From positions 1 to 40,593 of the forward strand of contig JADFJB010000025.1 of the NCBI GenBank assembly GCA_022566355.1: a stretch of 40,593 bases of DNA, given 5' to 3'. Below the pieces are notes generated by a model, which saw only the letters and a list, made by a program, of their open reading frames with translations, was not told the DNA's origin and searched no databases. Source of the DNA: a candidate division KSB1 bacterium (GTDB lineage Bacteria > Zhuqueibacterota > JdFR-76 > DREG01). Positions 408 to 13,364 of the stretch are shown in pieces. Within the stretch, counting starts at the first letter, position 1. Each line of letters begins with the position of its first letter. The position numbers and the translations under genes are program-made.

Positions 408-2114
408 ATGAATATTCAAAACAATACTTCCCGCCGTGAGTTTATCAAAAAATCCGGTATGGGTATTGGTGGTTTGACAATAGGATTTGGTTTTTTCCAC
501 ATCGGGGGATGTAACTCAAAAAAAGAATTCGATACTATTATCAAAGACGCTTTTGTTTTTGATGGATTAGGGAATCCTTCGATCGAAATGGATATCGGCA
601 TCAAGAATGGCAAGATTTCGGCAATGGGACAATTGTCAGGACGAAGCGCTGCAACTCTTCTGTCTGCAAGCGGTTATGCCCTGGCTCCCGGGTTTATCGA
701 TATTCATTCTCATACGGATAACGAATTACTCATCGATCCCAAAGCTCAAAGCAAAATTCGGCAAGGCGTTACCACGGAAATGGTAGGTCAAGATGGCAGT
801 TCAGTGGCGCCGTTAAAAGAGGAGGATCGGCAGAAACAACATGAAAGGTCCATATCTGATTATGGTGTTCCCATCACCTGGACCGATTTTAACGGCTTTT
901 ACAAGCAATTGCAGCAAGGCGGAACAGCAGTAAACTGGATGACAATGTTGGGCCAGGGTACCCTGCGTGGTTATGTCGTTGGTTTGAATGACAGACCCGC
1001 TACTGAAGATGAAGTTAAAGAGATGCGGCGGATCGCCCTGGAATGCATCGATCAGGGTATCTGGGGTATCTCATCCGGGTTGGAATACACACCAGGAAGC
1101 TTCGCTAACGCAGATGAAATCGCCCGGGTTTGTGCGGTGTTCAAAAAAAAGGCGCCTTTGTATGCCACACACATGCGCAACGAAGACGATGAAGTCGAAG
1201 AGGCTTTGCAGGAAGCCATAACCATTGCCAGGTCCGCCGGAACCGGATTGCAGGTCTCTCATCTAAAAGCACAGGGTCAGCGGAATTGGCATCGGGCAGA
1301 CAAAATACTGCAGATGCTGGAAGATGCCCGAAATTCCGGCATGAGAATCGCAGCGGATCGCTACCCCTATGAAGCTTACAGCACAGGTTTATCTTCGTTG
1401 TTTCCGTTGTGGAGCAGGGAGGGCGGTACAAAAAAATTTCTCGAACGCTTGCAGGATGAGGAACAATTCAAAAAAATTCGGGTGGATATACAGAATAAAA
1501 TCGACCGGCTTGGAAATTGGCAAGCGGTGATGATCAGCAGTGTGCAATTGGAAAAGAATCTTTGGATGCTGGGCAAACGCATGACCGAGATCGCGCAAAA
1601 GATGGGTGAAAACATCTTCGAATGCACGCGAGATTTAATAGTAGAAGAAGAAAATCGTGTTGGAATGTGTGGATTTGGCATGAGTGAAGAGAACACACAA
1701 AAGATCCTTAAACATCCTTTGGTTGCAATCGCTTCCGATGGCAGCGCCAGATCGATCGAAGGTCCTTTGAGCTCCGGACATCCACATCCGAGGAATTTTG
1801 GTGCTTTCCCGAGAATTCTCGGCAAATACGCACGCGACGAAAAGCTTTTCCCTCTTGAAGAAGCCATTCGTAAAATGACTTCGTTTCCCGCTTCAATGTT
1901 AGGAATAATAGATCGCGGTTTTCTGAAAGTAGGCGCCTTTGCTGATTTAGTCATTTTCGATCCGGACACTGTCGCAGACCAGGCGACATTCGAAAATCCT
2001 AAGCAATATCCAATCGGCATTCCTTATGTAATGGTGAATGGCGAGTTTGTGATTTTTGAGGGAGAGCATACAGGGAGGTTACCGGGGAGAGTGTTGGTGA
2101 AAAATAGAGTCTAA
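408..2114 (+). CDS. Tat-exported D-aminoacylase-like amidohydrolase (N-acyl-D-amino-acid deacylase family)
   Basis: A 568-residue amidohydrolase-3 family enzyme, predicted to hydrolyse an N-acyl-D-amino acid or related amide outside the cytoplasm. The N-terminus has a twin-arginine motif (SRREFIKK, residues 8-15), a short hydrophobic stretch and a lipobox-like IGGC ending at Cys35, so it may be a Tat-exported lipoprotein. The metal site is visible: HSHTD (His100, His102), then ATHMR, QVSHLK and ASDG motifs matching the two distal histidines and the catalytic Asp of D-aminoacylase. The position of the bridging Cys in classical D-aminoacylase (GNCG) is GQDG here (residues 127-130), so the second metal ligand differs. 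It stands alone, convergent with the TonB receptor. The general class is secure; the substrate is not. Confidence 0.85.
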   Translation: MNIQNNTSRREFIKKSGMGIGGLTIGFGFFHIGGCNSKKEFDTIIKDAFVFDGLGNPSIEMDIGIKNGKISAMGQLSGRSAATLLSASGYALAPGFIDIHSHTDNELLIDPKAQSKIRQGVTTEMVGQDGSSVAPLKEEDRQKQHERSISDYGVPITWTDFNGFYKQLQQGGTAVNWMTMLGQGTLRGYVVGLNDRPATEDEVKEMRRIALECIDQGIWGISSGLEYTPGSFANADEIARVCAVFKKKAPLYATHMRNEDDEVEEALQEAITIARSAGTGLQVSHLKAQGQRNWHRADKILQMLEDARNSGMRIAADRYPYEAYSTGLSSLFPLWSREGGTKKFLERLQDEEQFKKIRVDIQNKIDRLGNWQAVMISSVQLEKNLWMLGKRMTEIAQKMGENIFECTRDLIVEEENRVGMCGFGMSEENTQKILKHPLVAIASDGSARSIEGPLSSGHPHPRNFGAFPRILGKYARDEKLFPLEEAIRKMTSFPASMLGIIDRGFLKVGAFADLVIFDPDTVADQATFENPKQYPIGIPYVMVNGEFVIFEGEHTGRLPGRVLVKNRV

Positions 2115-2201: not shown

Positions 2202-4361
2202 TCACAACTCAAGCTGAAATCCCAACCTCACATTCCGAATCGGTTCTAAAAAGCGCTCACGGGTTGTATAATTGTAGTTGAACAGGTTATGAATCCCGCC
2301 GGTAAAGCGAATGAAATCCCATTGATAATTCATTTTCATATTCCATAGACGCATGGGAACACGATCATCCAGGGGAAAGACCTGTACCCGGTCGGATCGA
2401 CTCATGTATTGGTACTCGAGCTGAACATCGAAATTACCCCACTTAAATGAAGGGATGAACTTCAGGATTTTCCGCGGCCGATAGAATAAATATTTTCCTG
2501 TTGTCAAATCTTCATGGTCCATGATGGTTGCACTTGCATCTAAACCAATGTGGTTATTCCAAAATGACAGTTTACTGGATAGTTCTATACCTTGGATCCG
2601 CGGCCTGGCGATATTCAGAAACTGCACCGAGTTTGAGGTAATATCGATTGTTGGCTCGATCAAATCCCAATAATCATTTTGAAAAACTGCAATATCACCA
2701 ACCCAAGTATTGGTTAGATGGAAGCGGCTGCCAAGTTCAAATGACCAGGCACGCTCTGACTTTAGTTCCGGGTTGGGGAGCAATTCGAAACCGGCATAAC
2801 TCAGATTGAGAAAACGCTCAATAATGGCCGGTGGCCTGAATCCTTTACCAGCTGAAGCGCGCAACGACCAGTCGGGATTGACCAAATAATTAAGTCCAAT
2901 CCTTGGTGAAAATGTTTTTTCGGCCGGACGATCGTCGAGTTGATAATAATCATAGCGGAAGCCTGAAGTAACAGTCAGTGCGGTGATTGGTATGAATTCG
3001 TGTTGAATGTAAGGTCCTATGGTGTAAGCTTCGTGTTTTCCGATATGGATGATATGTGCTTTATCCGCTTTGTATTCCAACCCCGCCGTAATCGTGTGGT
3101 TCTTCGACGGGATCCAAATTCCCGACCATTCCATTCCGGGTCCAATCGCCGGGAAGAATTCGTCCGGTTTGTCGAATTTATTACCCAGTAATAATTCATT
3201 CAGGGAAAATCGAATTTTGCTGGAGAGTTTTGCTGAGTGGGTATGTTGAAAGATTACATAAAACTGCCCCTGGTTAATTTTAGCCAGTTCTGTCGCGGCA
3301 TCTTCATTTGGTGTCAATAAAACGTTTGCTTGATCTTTCCACATGATAAATTCACCGCGGCGATCACGCATTAGCGAACCATAAATTGTTAGATTGGAAT
3401 TCGAATTAAATGCATAGTGGATTTTCGCCGAGCCGATCACACGATGGTGGTATCCGTTTTCTTTGTAGCCGGTATTTTCATCTCGCCTTAGTGAGACCTG
3501 CAAGCCAATTTTCCCGAATTGCTTCGAATAGCTGATATCCTGCCTGTTAAAGTGCCGGGTGCGGTCCGTCCATCGCCATTCTTTATGATAGGGATCATCA
3601 TAAATTCCTGCCGACGTTTGAATGATTAGTTTTCCTTTTTGACTTGGTTTTTTCGTAATGATATTAATGACGCCGCCCAGGGCATTAGCGCCATAAAGAA
3701 ACGATCCTGCGCCTTTAATCACTTCGATGTGATCAACATCGATTAAGGGAATTAAATCCCAATTGATTTCACCGGTATCGCTGGCGTTGATGGGAATGCC
3801 GTCTATCAGTGCCAGGATTCGGGTGCCGGCGCCATACATAAAACCGGATGAATTGCGAATATTGACCTGGTTGCCAATGAAGACGGTTCCAGGCACATAG
3901 GTTAACGCATCATTAATCGAGTAAATCGCTTTTTGTGCGATTTCCCTGGCTGTAATCACACCAACACTCACAGGTGCTAGAAGGAGATCCTGTTCCTTTT
4001 TGCTCGCGATGACAACCACCGGGTTCATTTCCAGGATATCTTCTTGTAATACAAATTCTACAGAAATGACCTGATCCTGTTCTACTTCAATGGCACTCTG
4101 TCCACTTTGAAAACCAATGAACGAAGCCTTCAAACTCCAGACGCCCGCAGGAACATTAAAAATCGTAAACAATCCTTTGCCATCTGTTGTCACTCCTAGT
4201 GTACTGTTTTCGATAAAAACATTCACTGAGGCTAATGGTTTTCCATCCTTATTGGAGATCACTTTACCCTGGATGGTACCTTGGGCAAAAGCAAAGGTGG
4301 TAGCCAGCATTAAAAAACAGCAAGAGAAAACGATTGTTTTTAGATTTAATTTTTCCATCAA
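2202..4361 (-). CDS. TonB-dependent outer-membrane receptor
   Basis: A 719-residue TonB-dependent receptor for active uptake of a ligand across the outer membrane. After a signal peptide (residues about 1-26, ending FAFAQ) comes a carboxypeptidase-regulatory-like beta-sandwich (about 28-110, starting TIQGKVISNKDGKPL), as is common in Bacteroidota/FCB receptors. A plug domain follows (about 120-240, with ALIDGIPIN and GAGSFLYGANALGGVINIITKK). The rest is a beta barrel ending in the aromatic-rich RLGFQLEL. Length and order resemble BtuB/FepA-type receptors rather than the roughly 1000-residue SusC type. Its ATG overlaps the stop of the upstream lipoprotein gene by 4 bases (ATGA), so the two are translationally coupled. 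The ligand cannot be read from sequence. Confidence 0.93.
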   Translation of the reverse strand: MMEKLNLKTIVFSCCFLMLATTFAFAQGTIQGKVISNKDGKPLASVNVFIENSTLGVTTDGKGLFTIFNVPAGVWSLKASFIGFQSGQSAIEVEQDQVISVEFVLQEDILEMNPVVVIASKKEQDLLLAPVSVGVITAREIAQKAIYSINDALTYVPGTVFIGNQVNIRNSSGFMYGAGTRILALIDGIPINASDTGEINWDLIPLIDVDHIEVIKGAGSFLYGANALGGVINIITKKPSQKGKLIIQTSAGIYDDPYHKEWRWTDRTRHFNRQDISYSKQFGKIGLQVSLRRDENTGYKENGYHHRVIGSAKIHYAFNSNSNLTIYGSLMRDRRGEFIMWKDQANVLLTPNEDAATELAKINQGQFYVIFQHTHSAKLSSKIRFSLNELLLGNKFDKPDEFFPAIGPGMEWSGIWIPSKNHTITAGLEYKADKAHIIHIGKHEAYTIGPYIQHEFIPITALTVTSGFRYDYYQLDDRPAEKTFSPRIGLNYLVNPDWSLRASAGKGFRPPAIIERFLNLSYAGFELLPNPELKSERAWSFELGSRFHLTNTWVGDIAVFQNDYWDLIEPTIDITSNSVQFLNIARPRIQGIELSSKLSFWNNHIGLDASATIMDHEDLTTGKYLFYRPRKILKFIPSFKWGNFDVQLEYQYMSRSDRVQVFPLDDRVPMRLWNMKMNYQWDFIRFTGGIHNLFNYNYTTRERFLEPIRNVRLGFQLEL

Positions 4362-5197
4362 AATTCTATGGTGTTAAAATTGATATTCATATCAATATTG
4401 CGAAGCGTATCTCCTTTGGCGACAGTAATTGTTCCAGGCAAATCCGGGGAACCCGGATCTGCATAAAAACCCAGGTAACGGAGGTCGGTGAACGGTTTAT
4501 TCTTTGCTTTCCAAAATAACCCGATGTATTTATAAACACCGGCGCCAATGGGTAAATTGTAATTGTAAGATGAAACGAAAATCGGGATGCCAATTTTTGC
4601 TGATGAGACGCTTAGAAGCGAAAAAATGTTGTTTGGATTTGGCGGTTCTTTAAAGGCGCCTATTCCGGTAATTTCCGTCTCTTCAGGCCAGTCGCCTTCA
4701 TAAAAAATCGTTCCTGTAACCAGGGCTTCCCGAATAACGAGTTTGAAATCAGCATAAAGATCGATTGGTTCAACGGTTGGCTTTTCCTTTGTCACTTCAA
4801 TGGGAGTCGGCAGCAAATCCAAACCTTCACGGTAATAACCCAGGATATCGGAAAGATTCCAGGGAGCCGATTTACCCTTCCAAACAACGCCAAGAATATT
4901 GTATGTGCCAAATGGAACAACCAGCTCGTAATGGATGGTATCCCCTTCCCATTTGGGCAAGGGACCGGTTGTTATTAATTCCGTAAATTCAGTCGGTGGA
5001 AAAGATTTGGCCACAGCAACTCGAATTTCATCGGTTTTGTTGAGCACATCGTTAGTACGGTTTTGAAATATGATCTTGCCTTTGATCCTCCCTTGTAAGG
5101 GATTTAGGCCGTGATCGACACTGCACTGAATATTTAGCACAAAGGACACGAAGAGGAAAATAAAAATTGAAAAATAGGTTTTCCGGGATTGTGTCAA
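4358..5197 (-). CDS. Predicted lipoprotein of unknown function, coupled to the TonB receptor
   Basis: A 279-residue protein beginning with a lysine/arginine-poor but strongly hydrophobic leader (FSIFIFLFVSFVLNIQC) whose Cys26 is a plausible lipobox cysteine. The mature part is rich in beta-prone segments and contains two similar halves: each has a G-x-I-x-F/Y opening, then a YNI/YKYIG..WK motif (LGVVWKGKSAP and IGLFWKAKNKP) and a 'LGYY/LGFYADP' segment, suggesting an internal duplication of a beta-sandwich domain. I do not recognise the family. It lies between a T9SS-type secreted protein and the TonB receptor and overlaps the receptor gene by 4 bases, so it is probably a surface or periplasmic partner of that receptor (inference). 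Confidence 0.8.
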   Translation of the reverse strand: MTQSRKTYFSIFIFLFVSFVLNIQCSVDHGLNPLQGRIKGKIIFQNRTNDVLNKTDEIRVAVAKSFPPTEFTELITTGPLPKWEGDTIHYELVVPFGTYNILGVVWKGKSAPWNLSDILGYYREGLDLLPTPIEVTKEKPTVEPIDLYADFKLVIREALVTGTIFYEGDWPEETEITGIGAFKEPPNPNNIFSLLSVSSAKIGIPIFVSSYNYNLPIGAGVYKYIGLFWKAKNKPFTDLRYLGFYADPGSPDLPGTITVAKGDTLRNIDMNINFNTIEF

Positions 5198-5324
5198 TTT
5201 ATCTCCTTCGTGTTAATAACGGGATTTCGGTTTAGATTTTGAAAAAGAAACTCTCGTTATAAGTAAACAGTTCCTGATAAGCTTTATCAAATTCAAAAAA
5301 TGGTTTTAGATTTTGAAAGAAAAC

Positions 5325-7010
5325 TCACCGCAAAAGGAGTATCTTTTGAGTCTGCCTGGAAGATTGTCCCTGGGCCACAATCCAATATAAACCTGTTGGA
5401 AGACTAATTTCAGTGAGTTGCCGAAGATCCCAATCTATTTGGTGCTTGCCGATAGAAAGAGACTTGGATTCCTTTTGTGCGATGATCTGTCCTAAGGCAT
5501 TCACCAATGATAGAGTTATTTCATCTCTTTCGATCAAACTGAATTGCAGCGTTAGCGCGGTGCTGTCCCGCAATAAATAAGGATTGGGGTAGACCTTCAA
5601 TAAAAAAAACCGAACCGGAATAGGCTCATTTGTTACATCGGTTGTTTGGGTTTCATAAACGGTTTGTGTAAGCTGAAGTGGATTTTGTTCCCAGGCAAAA
5701 AGTTGCTCAGCTTGCATTCTGGTTTGATTTGCGGGCAGAAAATATGAAGTTGAAAATAAATCGAATGAACCAGAAGTAATAGACCCCCGAGCCATAAAAC
5801 CTGCATCTCCATAAGAAACGCCATCCCCGCTATCATCAGTTTCGTCAGCACTGCCGCCATTTTTATCATCGTGGTAATAGAGAAGCTGTTCATCACCTAA
5901 AGCAGGAACAAAGATATTCGTAAAAATGCTACCCGGATTACCGGTTGCCATATTCCAGTTAAATCCAGGCACAGAAAGAGATAAATCAACGTTACTATCC
6001 ACATTGCCGTCAATGGTTAATGTATTGGATGCATTCAAAAAAGTCATACCGGTAGCATGGATATTATGATCGAATGAAACGCGGATTGAATTTAACTGTC
6101 CGTTTAAATCGGATAAAATACTGAAATCCAGGTTTTCTAATTTGATCACCATTGAATAGGGGAAAAATTGCATTCTGAATCCAAAAATCCCTGGCAAGGG
6201 AATATTGCCAAATCCTCCTAATGGGATTTGCAATGTGATGAAAAGATCGCGAATGACGCGAACCGGTCCGTCCAAATACCTGGGATTTTCGAAACCTGAA
6301 CTATCAAATTTCACAATCCCGGATTCCTCATCAAGATTAATGGGAATATTTCCAAACCCAGCAAGATTGACTTGGCCGGCGATATGTATTTTAAGTCGAT
6401 CCAGAAAATCCAGGTTGTCTCCGCCATTATCCTGGGTGATCTGCAAATCCTCAGGCAAGCCGTTGTCTTGGTTGAATCCCATTTCAAAAAACCGTGAGAC
6501 GATTCTGTCATTGGTCTGGTCAGGCGATACGAAATCCTGGATTGAGAGTGAAAGGGGATCCAATACTAAAACTAAATATATCACCCCTTTTTCTTCATTA
6601 CTATTTGTTAATGGATCTTCCATCTCGATTTTATAACGTCCGGCTATCGTCGTATTATTTAAATTTGGCCAGCTGGAATCCGGCGCTTCATCCGCTAAAT
6701 CTTTTGCTAAAAAAACCAATTCATCCGGCTCCGAGAGAATACCTGAATGAAACCCAAAATAAGATCCGTCTGTGATTTGATCAATTTGAAACGGAATACC
6801 ATGCCAACTGTTTGAAGCGCTTTTGTAATTCATTAGTACCAGGTTGTCAATGGGTATCCCGATCATTTCAACAAAATGGTTTCCGGTTAGAATTACCGGT
6901 TGGTATTTGCGTTCAAGGCCGAAAACTGAACTAGCCAAAAGAGCGCTGCAGAAAAACGAAAGAGACCTTAAAAGCAATCTACCCACCAGGGTTCTCCAAT
7001 CAATACTCAT
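5325..7010 (-). CDS. Secreted protein with a type IX secretion C-terminal sorting domain
   Basis: A 561-residue exported protein. The leader (residues about 1-30, with a hydrophobic SLSFFCSALLASSVFG core) is a Sec signal peptide. The last ~90 residues form a Por/type IX sorting domain: KVYPNP, a beta-rich stretch with LVNALGQII, PTGLYWIVAQ and a terminal QKILLLR. The central ~430 residues are a low-homology beta-rich region with several Asp/Asn/Gly loops (for example DETDDSGDGVSYGDAG), which could bind calcium. I recognise no catalytic motif. It is first in an operon with a lipoprotein and a TonB receptor (127-bp gap), so a ligand-capture or degradation role feeding that receptor is possible. 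The sorting domain implies that the host has a type IX secretion system, though none of its components is in this window. Confidence 0.85.
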   Translation of the reverse strand: MSIDWRTLVGRLLLRSLSFFCSALLASSVFGLERKYQPVILTGNHFVEMIGIPIDNLVLMNYKSASNSWHGIPFQIDQITDGSYFGFHSGILSEPDELVFLAKDLADEAPDSSWPNLNNTTIAGRYKIEMEDPLTNSNEEKGVIYLVLVLDPLSLSIQDFVSPDQTNDRIVSRFFEMGFNQDNGLPEDLQITQDNGGDNLDFLDRLKIHIAGQVNLAGFGNIPINLDEESGIVKFDSSGFENPRYLDGPVRVIRDLFITLQIPLGGFGNIPLPGIFGFRMQFFPYSMVIKLENLDFSILSDLNGQLNSIRVSFDHNIHATGMTFLNASNTLTIDGNVDSNVDLSLSVPGFNWNMATGNPGSIFTNIFVPALGDEQLLYYHDDKNGGSADETDDSGDGVSYGDAGFMARGSITSGSFDLFSTSYFLPANQTRMQAEQLFAWEQNPLQLTQTVYETQTTDVTNEPIPVRFFLLKVYPNPYLLRDSTALTLQFSLIERDEITLSLVNALGQIIAQKESKSLSIGKHQIDWDLRQLTEISLPTGLYWIVAQGQSSRQTQKILLLR

Positions 7011-7203: not shown

Positions 7204-8463
7204 ATGTCAAGTGGAGAAACTTTAAATCCCTTTGCAATTGCTCAAAAACAACTAGATGAAGCAGCAGAAAGATTGGGGTTGGACAAGGGCACGCAAGAAT
7301 TTTTACGATGGCCGATGAGAGAATTCAAAGTAACATTGCCGGTAAGGATGGATGATGGCACTGTTAAGGTATTTCATGGATATAGGGTACAATATAACAA
7401 TTCAAGAGGACCAACGAAAGGTGGTTTACGCTGGCATCCTGACGAGACGATTGATACGGTTCGTGCACTCGCTGCGTGGATGACCTGGAAAACAGCCGTT
7501 GTGGATATTCCTCTTGGCGGCGCTAAAGGCGGAGTGACTTGTAATCCTAAAGAAATGTCGGAAACGGAAAAAGAAAAACTTGCCAGGGCTTACATTCGCC
7601 AGGTTGGCCGGATCCTAGGCGTTACCAAAGACGTTCCGGCGCCGGATGTATATACCACACCTCAGATCATGGCATGGATGATGGATGAGTATGAAACCAT
7701 CGAAAAAGAGAATCACCCTGGTGTGATTACCGGCAAACCGATTTCGGTGGGCGGCTCCCAGGGCCGTATGGATGCAACTGCTCGCGGCGGAGTATATATC
7801 GTTAGAGAAGCCAGTAAGATTAAAGGTATCGATCCGGCAAAGGCGAAATACGCTGTTCAAGGTTTTGGCAATGCCGGTCAATTTGCCGCAACACTGCATA
7901 AAGAAATTCTTGGCGGCGGGAAATTGGTCGCGGTTTCGGATTCAACCGGCGGTGTCTTTAATCCCGAGGGCTTCGATCCTCAGGAAATGGTTGACTATAA
8001 GTTAAACAATGGCAAAGTATCCGGATTCCCAGGTTCCGAGCCTATTTCAAATGATGACCTCCTTGAGTTGAATGTCGATATTCTCTATCCAGCGGCACTG
8101 GAAAACGTAATCACTTCTGCAAACGCGGAACGCATTAAAGCAAAAATTACTTGCGAACTTGCAAATGGACCAACAACCCCGGAAGCGGATGAAATTCTCT
8201 TTAAAAATGACGTATTTGTCTTGCCTGATTTACTAGCAAACGCTGGCGGTGTTACTGTTTCTTATTTTGAGCAGGTTCAAAACAGCTATAATTTTTATTG
8301 GGAACTGGAAGACATCCACAAGATGTTGGATACCAAAATAACCAAAGCCTTTAATGCTGTATACGACATGTATAAAAAGCACAAAGTCAATATGCGAGTT
8401 GCCGCTTATATGGTTGCTGTTTCAAGGGTAGCTGAAGCTTGCAAGGTGAGAGGGTGGGTTTAG
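7204..8463 (+). CDS. gdhA: Glutamate dehydrogenase (Glu/Leu/Phe/Val dehydrogenase family)
   Basis: A 419-residue amino-acid dehydrogenase that interconverts glutamate and 2-oxoglutarate plus ammonium with NAD(P). The substrate domain carries PLGGAKGG with the catalytic-site Lys108 and the PAPDVYT motif with Asp148, both typical of the hexameric bacterial/archaeal type of about 420 residues. The dinucleotide fold has GFGNAG at 220-225. The coenzyme (NAD or NADP) cannot be settled by eye. The ATG is preceded by AAAGGATAAAGAAA, a usable ribosome site. The gene is monocistronic between divergent and convergent neighbours, with a 16-bp inverted repeat upstream and heptamer repeats just after the stop. 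Confidence 0.95.
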
Positions 8464-8979: not shown

Positions 8980-10557
8980 TTATTTATCCTTAAGAACTTC
9001 CCTGGCAGCGTTAAACCCGGGAATTCCAGTAACGCCACCACCGGGATGAGTCCCGGATCCGCATAAGTAAAGGTTTTTTATCGGGGTGCGGTATTGGCCG
9101 AAACCGGCAACCGGCCGCATAAAGAGCAGTTGATCCAGTCCCATTTGACCGTGGTAAATACTGCCTTCCGTTAAGCCGTACTCAGTTTCCAAATCTAGCG
9201 GAGTGATCATTTGTTTGTGTAAAATGATGTCTTTTAATTTGGGGGCATATTCGGAGATGACTTCGATGATTCTGTCGGTGAGTTTATCGCCCATTTCAGC
9301 CCAATTGGTTTCCCTGAGATTATAAGGCGCATACTGCATCGTGATGGACATAATATGTTTACTCTCCGGAGCCAGGGATGAATCCAATACAGTTGGAATT
9401 ACAATATCTAAAACCGGGTTGTGGGAAAAACTTCCGTACTTGGCATCATCGTAACCTTTTTCCAGGTATTCCAGACTGGGATTTAACAAGATATGTCCAC
9501 GAAGATATTCCGGGTTGTCCTCCATCCCTTTGAATTGGGGTAAGTCATTCAGGGCAAGATTTAGTTTTGCGGTTGAACCGCGAAAACGGATATTGCGAAC
9601 TTTTCTGACAAACTGCGGGCCAAAATTCGGCGCCCCAACCAAATTTATGAAGGTTCGATAGGGATCTGCACTCGAAACTATTTTTTTCGACCGAACTTCG
9701 ATTCCATCCGATAGAACGATTCCATGCGCCTGACTATCATCCGTTAAGATAACCTCAACCTCTGCGTCGGTTCGTATTTCCACTCCATACGATTCGGCAG
9801 CTTTAGCCAGCGCCGAGGATAATATCCCGATACCGCCGCGAACGAATTTGTTGGGCTGCAGGCAGCCATTTTGTGTTTGCAGCCAGTGATACAACATCAT
9901 AAAAGAAGTGCCGGATGCCTGTGGTCCTTGCATGCTTCCTTTTACTGCGGAACTGGCAAGCGCTCCCTTTAGTGCATCGCTTTCGAACCATTCATCCAGA
10001 AACTGCTGCGCCGTCATGGGAAGAACGCGCAGGAATTCCATCATTTCAGATTTTCCCAGGCGTTTTAAGCGCAGAGAAGTTTTTAGCCACGGCAGCAGTT
10101 CCGTAAAGCTACTATTGACTACATCCGGAGGCGTCATGAAATTGATACCATTTAGAATCCGGGTAAATTTTGAAATGAGTTCGATGAATCCCGGGAATTT
10201 CTCAGCATCCTTTTTGGAAAAATTAGCGATTTCGGTGAGGCTCCTTTCGATCTCATGCCAGAGTACCAGGTGTGCGCCATTTTTTTGTAAAGAGATCAAA
10301 TTGATGGGTGTTTCAATAAACTCAAATCCAAAGCGCTTTAAATCTAAATCCTCAATGATTTTAGGGTGAAACAAACCGGCATCGACAGCGCCGGTATTTA
10401 CTTTAAACCCTGGCCAAACCTCCTCTGTTGCTGCAGAGCCGCCTAAAGTATAACGTCGTTCCACGACCAGCACTTTTTGTCCCGCTTTTGCCAGGGTGGC
10501 CGCAGCTACCAGGCCATTGTGTCCGCCGCCGATTATAATTACATCATAATTACTCAT
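8980..10557 (-). CDS. FAD-dependent oxidoreductase, PYROXD2/phytoene-desaturase-like (copy A)
   Basis: A 525-residue flavoprotein with an N-terminal Rossmann motif (IIIGGGHNG, residues 7-15, then E33) and a C-terminal FAD-contacting segment (LYLCGSGTHPGGGVTG). It belongs to the NAD(P)/FAD-dependent oxidoreductase group that includes phytoene desaturases and human PYROXD2. There is no carotenoid gene nearby (no crtB), so carotenoid desaturation is unlikely. It is closely similar to the gene upstream on the same strand (both have GFK near residue 50, DLK, FSKKDAE/FSKRDAE, EWFE(S/T)DAL, YDDAKYG, HV/IMS and CGSGTHPGGG), so the two are tandem paralogues. The 31-bp gap to that gene indicates one operon. 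The substrate is unknown. Confidence 0.88.
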   Translation of the reverse strand: MSNYDVIIIGGGHNGLVAAATLAKAGQKVLVVERRYTLGGSAATEEVWPGFKVNTGAVDAGLFHPKIIEDLDLKRFGFEFIETPINLISLQKNGAHLVLWHEIERSLTEIANFSKKDAEKFPGFIELISKFTRILNGINFMTPPDVVNSSFTELLPWLKTSLRLKRLGKSEMMEFLRVLPMTAQQFLDEWFESDALKGALASSAVKGSMQGPQASGTSFMMLYHWLQTQNGCLQPNKFVRGGIGILSSALAKAAESYGVEIRTDAEVEVILTDDSQAHGIVLSDGIEVRSKKIVSSADPYRTFINLVGAPNFGPQFVRKVRNIRFRGSTAKLNLALNDLPQFKGMEDNPEYLRGHILLNPSLEYLEKGYDDAKYGSFSHNPVLDIVIPTVLDSSLAPESKHIMSITMQYAPYNLRETNWAEMGDKLTDRIIEVISEYAPKLKDIILHKQMITPLDLETEYGLTEGSIYHGQMGLDQLLFMRPVAGFGQYRTPIKNLYLCGSGTHPGGGVTGIPGFNAAREVLKDK

Positions 10558-10588
10558 TAACTAGTCTGCACTAAATTCACAAGGTATC

Positions 10589-12169
10589 CTATTTCATATC
10601 CTTCAAGATGATTTCCGCTGCAAGCTTGCCCGGCGCCCCGGTAATACCACCGCCTGGGTGCGTTCCGGAACCGCACTGGTAATAATTTTTTATGGGTGTT
10701 TTATACTGGGCCAATCCATGAGCAGGACGTAAGAAAAAAAGCTGGGACAGTGAAAGTTCACCGGCAAATATGTTTCCCTGGGACAGCCCAATAATTTGCT
10801 CGATATCCCAGGGTGTTATTACCTGGCGATGTAAGATGATTTTTCTTAAATTGGGCATATATTCGGAAAGTGTATTCACAACGGCATCGCCAAAATCTTC
10901 TCTTTTTTCTTGCCAGGTTCCTTCGGCAAGTTGGTAGGGTGCATATTGAACGAAGCAAGACATCACATGTTTTCCAGGAGGCGCCATACCGGGATCGATC
11001 ATCGAGGGAATGATTATGTCGATATAAGGCTTCTTCGAAAAATTGCCGTATTTTGCATCGTCGTAAGCGCGTTCAAGATAATCGACACTTGGACTGATGG
11101 AGATGGCTCCTTTGAGGTGCAAGCCGTTTCCCGGCATACAGGATAAATCAGGCAAAGCATCCAGCGCCAAATTGACCTTTCCTGATGAACCGCGGTATGT
11201 AAATTTTCGGATTGAAGCAGCCATGTCGTCCGGTAAATAGGAGGAGTCGATCAATTTCAAGAATGTCCGGTTTGGATCGAGACTGGATACAACTACACCC
11301 GCAGAAAATTCGTCGCCATTTCTTAAAATGACACCTTTTGCATTTCCGCTTTTAATAACGACTTCGGCTACCTCTGCTTCGGTATGAATTTCCACCCCGA
11401 ACGCTTGAGCAGAGCTTGCAATGGCCTCCGCGATACTACCCGTACCACCTTTTGCAAAACCCCACGCCCTGAAATTGCCATCGATCTCGCCCATGTAGTG
11501 ATGGAGAAGCACATAAGCGGTTCCGGGCGATCTAGGCCCAAGGAATGTTCCAATAATTCCACTTGCCGCCATTGTAGCGATCAACGCATCGGTTTCGAAC
11601 CATTCTTCCAGGAAATCCGCAGAGCTCATGGTCATTAATTTAACAAGTGTGTAAAAATGTTCTTCGCTTAGATTCAGAAAATGTTTGCCGAAACGAAGTA
11701 AGCCCATTAAATCAACTGGTTTTAGCGACGTCGGATCCGGTGGTGTAATTCCTAAAATAAATTTAACTGCTTTAGCCATAAAATACATGGCACGACTGTA
11801 ATCATCATAAGCTTCGGCGTCCCGCTTTGAAAATCGTGCAATATCCCGCATGGTGCGAAAATGATCGGCATCTCGATAGATATAGTCGCCATTGGGCAGA
11901 GGCGTTAGCGTGCTTTCCAGGGGTAGAATTGTCAATCCATGTTCCGGAAGTTTTAAATCCCGGATAATCTCCGGCCGCATCAAACTCACCACATAGGAGA
12001 AGACGCTGAATTTAAATCCGGGATAGATTTCTTCCGTGACGGTTGCACCCCCAACCAAATGCCGCTTTTCCAAGACTAATACTTTCTTCCCGGCCCGCGC
12101 CAGGTAAGCTGCATTCACCAGGCCATTGTGACCGCCACCAATGATAATGGCATCGTATTTCTTCTTCAA
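10589..12169 (-). CDS. FAD-dependent oxidoreductase, PYROXD2/phytoene-desaturase-like (copy B)
   Basis: A 526-residue paralogue of the next gene downstream, with the Rossmann motif IIIGGGHNG within the first 15 residues and CGSGTHPGGGITG near the C-terminus. No ATG precedes the Rossmann motif. I chose the TTG at 12169, which falls 4 bases after the stop of the aminomethyltransferase gene and gives a normal N-terminus (KKKYDAIIIGGG). A second TTG at 12217 would add 16 residues and overlap that gene by 44 bases. The two flavoproteins may be functional partners or have diverged substrates. Linkage with a GcvT-family protein suggests oxidation of an N-methyl or amine compound whose one-carbon unit passes to folate (inference). 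Confidence 0.87.
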   Translation of the reverse strand: MKKKYDAIIIGGGHNGLVNAAYLARAGKKVLVLEKRHLVGGATVTEEIYPGFKFSVFSYVVSLMRPEIIRDLKLPEHGLTILPLESTLTPLPNGDYIYRDADHFRTMRDIARFSKRDAEAYDDYSRAMYFMAKAVKFILGITPPDPTSLKPVDLMGLLRFGKHFLNLSEEHFYTLVKLMTMSSADFLEEWFETDALIATMAASGIIGTFLGPRSPGTAYVLLHHYMGEIDGNFRAWGFAKGGTGSIAEAIASSAQAFGVEIHTEAEVAEVVIKSGNAKGVILRNGDEFSAGVVVSSLDPNRTFLKLIDSSYLPDDMAASIRKFTYRGSSGKVNLALDALPDLSCMPGNGLHLKGAISISPSVDYLERAYDDAKYGNFSKKPYIDIIIPSMIDPGMAPPGKHVMSCFVQYAPYQLAEGTWQEKREDFGDAVVNTLSEYMPNLRKIILHRQVITPWDIEQIIGLSQGNIFAGELSLSQLFFLRPAHGLAQYKTPIKNYYQCGSGTHPGGGITGAPGKLAAEIILKDMK

Positions 12170-12173
12170 TTGT

Positions 12174-13364
12174 CTAAGCTTTTTTCCGTGGTGGATCAAA
12201 AAACGGTGTCTTAACAATCGTAGCCGTCGTTAGCTTCCGGTGAAATTCGATCGTAATTTCCATTTCGACCTGGGAACCCGGGATAGCATATTTACTTTCA
12301 ATGGATCCCATAGCGATATATTTTTTTAATAATGGAGAAAAAGTACTGCTGGTCATTTGACCGATTTGCTTGCCATTTTTAAATACCGGGAGCGGATCAC
12401 GGGAAGCCCTGCCGGCAACCAGGGGCGGAAGATCGGCCTCGGCATAAAGCTGTTCTAATTTTTCCCAATGAATTTCTAGACCGACAAAACTCCATCCCGA
12501 ACCCTGTTTGCTTTCTTTCACAAGAGGCGTTTTCCCGATAAAATCTTTCTTTTTCAATTTCACGGTCCAGCCAAGTCCCAATTCAAATGGCGAGGATTTG
12601 CGAAATTCGGTCAATGCTTTCATGCTTGAGATATAATCGACTTCGATCAATAAAAGTCCGGCTTCAATCCTGACAATATCCAGTGCAACCATACCAGCCG
12701 GGAATATGCCATAGTCTGCGCCTTTGTCCATCAAAATATCCCACATTTCTTCAGCGTACTTGGGAGAAACCCACAATTCATAACCAAGGTCGCCGGTATA
12801 ACCTGTTCTGGATATAGTAACCGGAAAATTATCGAAGTTTACCTGGGTGAGATGAAAAAACTTCAGTCCATCCAAATCCACATTTTTAACAATCTGTTTT
12901 AAAATTTCTCTTGAGTTCGGACCTTGCAGGGCCAACGCGGCCAGCTCCTCCGTTACATCATTAACCTGTATATCCATGCCAAATCCACAGTCTTCAAACC
13001 ATCTCAAACTAGGATCTGCAGATGTAATTCGGAAATGATTTTCGGCTAACCGGGAAACGGTGCCGTCGTCGATGACTTTGCCTTCTTCGTCGCACCATGG
13101 GGTGTACATGACCTGCCCGATTTTGCATTTTATTGCATTTCGTGTAATAATTCGATCCACGAGTCTGGCAGCATCCGATCCGGTGATTTCATATTTAAAT
13201 AATGGTGAAACATCAATCAGGCCTGCAGCATTTCGGATGGCAAAATATTCCCGGTCATGGGTGGGTTCATAGGCGCTTACTGCAATATAGCCCGACCAAT
13301 TGCGCCATTCATGTGTTTTGCAAAGCGGAGAAGTCCGGGAGTGAAACGGGGAAGGTACTGGCAT
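12174..13364 (-). CDS. GcvT-family aminomethyltransferase / folate-dependent demethylase
   Basis: A 396-residue member of the glycine-cleavage T-protein family, which moves a one-carbon unit from an amine (or DMSP) to tetrahydrofolate. The N-terminal folate-binding domain shows EGKVIDDGTV with the conserved Asp pair (99-100), then LALQGPNSREIL and SRTGYTGDLGYELW, which contribute to the folate pocket. A C-terminal barrel with KKKDFIGKTPL follows. It lacks gcvH or gcvP neighbours, and the typical T-protein leader residues differ, so it is probably a DmdA/sarcosine-type relative rather than the housekeeping GcvT. It is the first gene of a three-gene operon with two FAD oxidoreductases. The substrate is not determined. 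Confidence 0.88.
   Translation of the reverse strand: MPVPSPFHSRTSPLCKTHEWRNWSGYIAVSAYEPTHDREYFAIRNAAGLIDVSPLFKYEITGSDAARLVDRIITRNAIKCKIGQVMYTPWCDEEGKVIDDGTVSRLAENHFRITSADPSLRWFEDCGFGMDIQVNDVTEELAALALQGPNSREILKQIVKNVDLDGLKFFHLTQVNFDNFPVTISRTGYTGDLGYELWVSPKYAEEMWDILMDKGADYGIFPAGMVALDIVRIEAGLLLIEVDYISSMKALTEFRKSSPFELGLGWTVKLKKKDFIGKTPLVKESKQGSGWSFVGLEIHWEKLEQLYAEADLPPLVAGRASRDPLPVFKNGKQIGQMTSSTFSPLLKKYIAMGSIESKYAIPGSQVEMEITIEFHRKLTTATIVKTPFFDPPRKKA

Follow-up and report, generated by a model that had tools for sequence, protein, structure and literature searches.

At positions 2202-7010 of the minus strand of contig JADFJB010000025.1 (assembly GCA_022566355.1, contig 25 of a candidate division KSB1 bacterium), three open reading frames (ORFs) follow each other in the same direction in the order CP, LP and TB: a type IX-sorted cargo protein, a lipoprotein and a TonB-dependent receptor. 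The whole contig of 40,593 nucleotides was analysed and is referred to here as the window; the genome it belongs to measures 4.6 Mb, is 98.5% complete and falls into the KSB1/JdFR-76 group, which according to the available part of PMC11683472 comprises Zhuqueibacterota and its sister. Our analysis revealed that LP and TB form a long-lasting pair in this phylum, and we consider them, with a probability of about 0.62, to be the two components of a single import device in the outer membrane, in which LP would be the extracellular capture or lid protein. The direct observations behind this are the linkage of the genes, a shared receptor clade, the congruence of the LP and TB trees, the lipobox of LP and its modelled two-repeat beta fold, together with a type IX secretion system (T9SS) sortase in the same genome. 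The genes and their domains are as follows.

5325..7010, minus strand: CP, secreted protein of 561 amino acids (ORF; body of approximately residues 1-465 without a named family, then the type IX sorting domain; 27-member alignment)
5337..5594, minus strand: type IX (type A) C-terminal sorting domain of CP, residues 473-558 (TIGR04183, PF18962)
4358..5197, minus strand: LP, lipoprotein of 279 amino acids with two tandem beta-sandwich repeats as modelled (ORF, TTG start behind AAGGAG, AlphaFold2 model)
5099..5125, minus strand: predicted lipidation cysteine C25 of LP and the conserved motif C-x-[IV]-D-H-G-L-x-P that starts with it (motif counts across LPs)
4742..5095, minus strand: LP repeat 1, residues 35-152 (repeat alignment; model strands 35-150)
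4361..4741, minus strand: LP repeat 2, residues 153-279 (repeat alignment; model strands 158-273)
2202..4358, minus strand: TB, TonB-dependent receptor of 718 amino acids (PF00593, PF07715, PF13715)
4011..4274, minus strand: N-terminal carboxypeptidase-regulatory-like domain of TB, residues 29-116 (PF13715; phmmer match to XusA)
3669..3977, minus strand: plug domain of TB, residues 128-230 (PF07715)
2283..3575, minus strand: beta-barrel of TB, residues 262-692 (PF00593)

Linkage and shared history of LP and TB

A search with the single LP protein found it in 34 of 39 related genomes, and a search with an LP profile in 76 of the 82 genomes of the KSB1/JdFR-76 phylum. Linkage was counted for 65 LP ORFs in 61 stretches (60 around LP matches and the window), leaving out G008:C24, an LP match of the single-protein search. 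A TonB receptor on the same strand lies directly downstream, within 1.5 kb, for 60 of these 65 LP ORFs. The chance rate of a receptor standing beside LP is approximately 0.56%, from at least 852 receptor matches in 167.6 Mb; this rate is a lower bound, and even a threefold higher rate would leave the observed number far above chance. Four further loci outside this count (L144-L147) have LP adjoining TB in all cases. When 290 genomes were searched with the LP profile at expect values (E) up to 1e-6, LP was present in 75 of 82 genomes inside the phylum and in 5 of 208 outside it. In four of these five outside genomes (L189-L192) the LP ORF immediately precedes a receptor of the TB clade, which matches the window TB with 240-378 bits. 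The fifth (L188) has an over-long receptor ORF (252 bits) whose upstream end carries the LP match, a layout that would be expected if LP directly precedes the receptor there. Given 60 of 65 against 0.56% expected, and the same linkage in the five outside genomes, the explanation that the genes stand together by chance or through mere co-directional order, with no functional bond, is refuted at the level of linkage and has a negligible probability; nothing was found in its favour.

Seen from the receptor side, 82 match rows of at least 240 bits to the window TB were obtained in 39 genomes, and a recognised LP is directly upstream in 70 of them according to a hand tally. Six have a different lipoprotein-like ORF upstream, and the rest consist of an unclear case (L134), a receptor convergent with its LP, two contig ends (G006:C170 and L138) and two unlinked receptors. 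The six different ORFs (L129, L132, L133, L135, L136 and L137) encode approximately 185-230 amino acids and mostly carry a C-x-x-G-L-x-P foot; they match neither LP model and, in the four that were scanned, no convincing Pfam family, and they are possibly a second partner family, either unrelated or very diverged.

The two genes also share their history. Among 56 pairs the LP and TB distances correlate with a rho of 0.76, as opposed to 0.20 for the best of 1000 permutations, and between the 14 genomes with at least two pairs the matching of LP and TB paralogues agrees in 221 of 237 cases, compared with approximately 80 expected. Linked genes should give congruent trees in any case, so that this agreement demonstrates a bond of long standing and not contact. 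In the FastTree phylogeny, 58 full-length paired receptors form one clade with a support of 0.997, apart from 17 other receptors that all come from the window genome; the clade is partly a result of construction, as the paired receptors were chosen at more than 150 bits to the window TB and more than 600 amino acids.

Sequence and fold of the three proteins

The initial annotation, made from the sequence alone, had described a type IX-sorted surface protein, a two-repeat lipoprotein and a TonB receptor in this order, and the ORFs of 561, 279 and 718 (or 719) amino acids and their domains bear out all three descriptions. Its 4-base overlap between the last two genes depends on the start codon: the LP/TB junction reads TGATG, so that the ATG start of TB at 4358 gives an overlap of 1 base, and an overlap of 4 bases needs a TTG start at 4361, with which TB has 719 amino acids.

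TB has the predicted make-up of an ordinary TonB receptor to which a carboxypeptidase-like domain is added at the N-terminus, since PF00593 (139.1 bits), PF07715 (74.9 bits) and the N-terminal PF13715 (74.7 bits) all exceed their Pfam cut-offs. The top NCBIfam scores belong to receptors for haem or haemoglobin, transferrin, B12 and siderophores, none above its cut-off; the B12 receptor model TIGR01779 gives 135.4 bits (cut-off 599.7) and the SusC/RagA model TIGR04056 82.7 bits (cut-off 368.25). A phmmer search matched residues 10-249 to PDB entry 9gbc (XusA, E 8e-17), and residues 28-252 match RagA (6sli).

The lipobox cysteine of the window LP is residue 25, and its internal repeats align with a score of 84, against 58 for the best of 1000 shuffles. 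As initially annotated, LP matches no known family: searched as a single sequence, a 38-member set and a profile against Pfam, NCBIfam and the PDB sequences, it gave no family match and only a few isolated weak matches. The LPs range from approximately 150 to approximately 606 amino acids and from a single repeat to doubled forms, and most share a foot motif x-[IV]-D-H-G-L-x-P after the lipidated cysteine. The motif could be fitted in 64 of 65 LPs, with C in 64 of 64, D(+3) in 46, G(+5) in 56, L(+6) in 44 and P(+8) in 48; the pattern itself requires C and a G/D-L/V/I step, and the C and part of the G and L counts are therefore given by construction. An AlphaFold2 model from six sequences (mean predicted local distance difference test score, pLDDT, 80.8; predicted template modelling score 0.64) has two tandem beta-rich repeats, which in the model can be read as beta-sandwiches. 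The second match of this model among PDB folds is the DUF4876 protein BT_1938 (4q1z; Z 6.7, root-mean-square deviation 3.5, 86 residues), below the level at which a match stands out, and the list consists mostly of common beta-sandwich modules such as starch-binding domains, pilins and FimA-like proteins. A Z under 8 may be just a common arrangement, and the absence of XusB or BtuG from this list proves nothing.

The C-terminus of CP scores 28.5 bits with TIGR04183 (cut-off 23) and 24.9 bits with PF18962, just under the cut-off of 27, and the window genome encodes a T9SS sortase (NF033707, 884 bits, cut-off 420). In the family scans only this sorting domain was matched, which leaves the body without a named family, as the initial annotation had it; an alignment of 27 members contains many invariant residues, and a two-sequence structure model was useless (mean pLDDT 38.2). 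Homologues of the CP body are frequent, and CP is a wider family that is found often but not always alongside the LP-TB pair. It lies immediately 5' of LP in 25 of the 65 cases and 3' of TB in 6, five of the latter being full pairs whose LPs have a single repeat and which occupy one region of the receptor tree. All 20 sampled CP-body loci without LP have neither LP nor a TonB receptor in the stretch; these loci were picked for the absence of a nearby LP, and several are shortened by contig ends.

Proposed mode of action, alternatives and known systems

By analogy, the simplest account of LP-TB would be a lipoprotein-assisted TonB importer that works like BtuBG, XusAB and SusCD but with an unrelated lipoprotein. 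LP would be anchored to the outer membrane through the lipidated Cys25 and most likely be positioned on the outward-facing side of TB, acting in capture or as a lid; there it would bind a nutrient and pass it to TB, which would move it inward with TonB energy. CP, as a type IX-exported surface protein, may feed or help the pair in this and some related branches, and elsewhere the device would work without it. We infer the surface exposure of LP, its contact with TB, the capture of a substrate and TonB-driven import from the observations described above.

Several points weigh against this account. Five of the 65 LPs have no TB downstream: one ends at a contig end (L042), one faces a convergent receptor (L088), one stands alone (L083), the LP of L074 is unlinked to a TB of the clade (L140) in the same genome, and a spare LP (L054) coexists with a spare TB of the clade (L141) in another genome; in these last two genomes the presence of both genes despite the lost linkage counts in favour of the pair. 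Close linkage can give genes a common history even when their products never touch. The Bacteroidota rule for surface export asks for at least two acidic residues among the six after the cysteine; the window LP has one, and 27 of 64 LPs have two or more, so this signal is not a feature of the LP family, the rule being drawn from another phylum. Nor was a riboswitch seen in the window or in 12 related loci. The best fold match, a rhamnogalacturonan lyase domain, reaches a middling Z of 7.0, and since the fold matches are only middling, the fold indicates neither a substrate nor a function.

The missing export signal in most LPs would also suit a lipoprotein that faces the periplasm and helps TB in folding, insertion or TonB coupling without binding a substrate. 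The motif after the cysteine is among the most conserved parts of LP, as would fit docking to the barrel, and the co-inheritance of receptor and lipoprotein would look identical. However, the copy number of LP follows one receptor clade and not the 3-33 receptors per genome among the matches listed, so LP is no general assembly factor, and between branches LPs differ widely in both length and sequence, as would befit a protein that binds a ligand; we therefore regard such a helper as unlikely. Somewhat less doubtful is that the pair takes up corrinoid, haem or a metal chelate, LP being a lid that binds siderophores or haem in the manner of XusB, HmuY or DUF4876 proteins. The highest, if sub-threshold, NCBIfam scores of TB and the fold likeness of LP to BT_1938 point in this direction, and operons of DUF4876 and a receptor are strongly induced by iron starvation in Porphyromonas and Bacteroides, as reported in the accessible part of PMC10434189. 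Against it stand the lack of a DUF4876 match in the LPs, the separate occurrence of DUF4876 in the phylum, a Z that may reflect a common arrangement, the lack of a riboswitch in the window or in 12 related loci, and the absence of PepSY, Feo, haem and cobalamin genes among those neighbour clusters of at least three genomes that were family-scanned (part of the clusters, one member each).

An obligate three-part system, in which the type IX cargo would be a surface hydrolase or scavenger, is quite improbable. The position of CP directly upstream of LP (25 of 65) or after TB (6 of 65) speaks for it, but many LP-TB pairs lack CP (of 58, 18 have neither CP nor a FadL gene and 12 have FadL), CP bodies occur unaccompanied at all 20 sampled loci without LP, and the obligate CP-LP-TB trio was rejected since CP is widely found alone. 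The receptor-partner pair proposed in the initial annotation is well supported as regards LP and TB, given their linkage inside and outside the phylum, the single receptor clade and the congruent trees, and is not supported as regards CP as a necessary third part. The occurrence of homologues widely without a TonB receptor nearby, named there as the finding that would speak against the grouping, is true of CP and not of LP.

SusC-SusD and RagA-RagB combine a receptor that has a carboxypeptidase-like domain with a lipoprotein, as in LP-TB, and this carboxypeptidase-regulatory-like N-terminal domain is also present in SusC- and XusA-type receptors. The initial annotation had seen a likeness to SusCD with neither SusD nor a SusC-size receptor, and both absences hold: SusD (PF14322) was not found in the window genome, LP has no SusD match in the Pfam scans, and TB, with 718 amino acids, lies under the SusC cut-off. 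Membership of the SusCD systems was therefore rejected. The domain plan of TB (carboxypeptidase-like domain, plug, barrel) equals that of XusA. XusA-XusB of Bacteroides thetaiotaomicron, which imports ferric enterobactin, likewise consists of one such receptor and one surface lipoprotein, and XusB is a solved lipoprotein lid (PMC13142918, available part); neither LP nor its profile has a sequence match in the PDB, a set in which the presence of XusB is unconfirmed, and LP-TB is not known to take up a siderophore. BtuB-BtuG of Bacteroides, for vitamin B12, is also an operon of a surface lipoprotein and a receptor, working as a pedal-bin lid, and BtuG is a beta-propeller according to the text available of PMC10404256, whereas LP is modelled as two beta-sandwich repeats; TB lies far below the B12 receptor cut-off and the window has no cobalamin riboswitch.

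DUF4876 proteins also adjoin a TonB receptor in Porphyromonas (PG1019-22) and Bacteroides (BT1938-39) (PMC10434189, in part), and their fold likeness to LP is weak. DUF4876 (PF16215) matched none of 38 LPs up to an E of 1 and occurs apart from LP in 5 of 39 genomes, the window genome not among them; DUF4876 is a separate family here, LP was rejected as a member, and the fold resemblance alone remains. At some of the DUF4876 loci (L148-L159), the gene closely follows a partial ORF that looks by eye (unscored) like a receptor barrel; such loci may be a second kind of lipoprotein-receptor arrangement in this phylum.

According to the part available of a 2023 structural paper (PMC10404256), lipoprotein-capped TonB transporters appear to be exclusive to Bacteroidetes, which LP-TB would contradict if contact is shown. 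The lid principle would then extend to another phylum through a nameless LP family that is near-universal there and tied to one receptor clade, which would make LP-TB an evident object of structural and ligand studies. A search of the open literature on TonB receptors, KSB1 and lipoprotein found no paper; the parts available of PMC5317091, PMC11382960 and PMC11683472 contain nothing on the LP-TB pair, and that of PMC9012183, a review of KSB1 metabolism, does not mention TonB, SusD or lipoprotein.

Gene neighbourhoods and other features

The neighbours of LP-TB differ between branches. A FadL-family gene occurs in 14 stretches of 14 genomes (representative PF03349, 147.9 bits), and 12 of the 58 full pairs have it beside LP-TB on the same strand (one hand-assigned); a separate FadL search gave a strong match at the same coordinates as the pair-side gene in most of those genomes. 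Recurrent companions in the FadL branch are a TetR regulator, electron-transfer flavoprotein subunits and a CCG iron-sulphur protein (clusters F4, F7, F14 and F15, one member each scanned); two related genomes have an esterase ahead of a short LP (L087 scanned, L089 assigned by similar sequence). These neighbours suggest fatty acids or esters, or a fatty-acyl or other hydrophobic substrate, in this sister branch, and they make lipid import by lipoprotein-partnered TonB receptors a testable question. In Thalassolituus oleivorans on alkanes, FadL and a TonB receptor are both raised on a hydrophobic substrate, as might be compared with the FadL-LP-TB branch; in the part available of PMC6304351, no lipoprotein partner is named for that receptor and the FadL and receptor locus numbers are distant. 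A tentative and speculative extension is that LP-TB could have arisen outside Bacteroidota as a class of its own within lipoprotein-assisted TonB import, its lid being a distinct family of small beta-sandwich proteins on a C-x-x-D-H-G-L-x-P foot, and would serve largely for hydrophobic, fatty-acyl-like nutrients beside FadL, that is, TonB-driven surface capture of lipids or lipid esters.

In the window branch, the neighbours give no substrate clue. The operon is flanked on the other strand by an amidohydrolase (408-2114) and a glutamate dehydrogenase (7204-8463), which are in no cluster recurring in at least three genomes and were not used for substrate inference. The gap between CP and LP measures 127 bases, in which no terminator-like site was found, and a sigma-70 scan was uninformative (12 sites, 12.3 expected). 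The initial annotation had also raised B12 or other regulatory sites; the Rfam search of the window gave no riboswitch, the cobalamin riboswitch included, and among the 12 related loci the single match was a 6S RNA.

Further neighbours were observed at individual loci. A conserved block at L128:4675-6223 and L144-L147 has the order DUF2085, DUF4199-like (GNCLCC motif), short LP and TB (one representative scanned); the first two are small membrane proteins that carry Cys/His residues. Near CP-LP-TB at L067, L069, L065 and L071 lie a D-serine dehydratase/alanine racemase-like protein (PF14031, PF01168) and a transglutaminase-core protein (PF01841; one member each scanned). An M20 amidohydrolase precedes LP in three genomes (L052, L054, L056), and an M49-like peptidase follows TB in three FadL-type loci (L076, L081, L086), with one member scanned in each case. 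The amidohydrolase of the window (408-2114, plus strand), convergent with TB, has an N-terminus resembling both a twin-arginine translocation signal and a lipoprotein, and its top NCBIfam score is PRK09061 with 213 bits, below the cut-off of 340. At 8980-12217 on the minus strand of the window, two similar adjacent proteins carry an N-terminal dinucleotide-binding GGGHNGL motif and presumably resemble FAD-dependent oxidoreductases of the phytoene-desaturase type.

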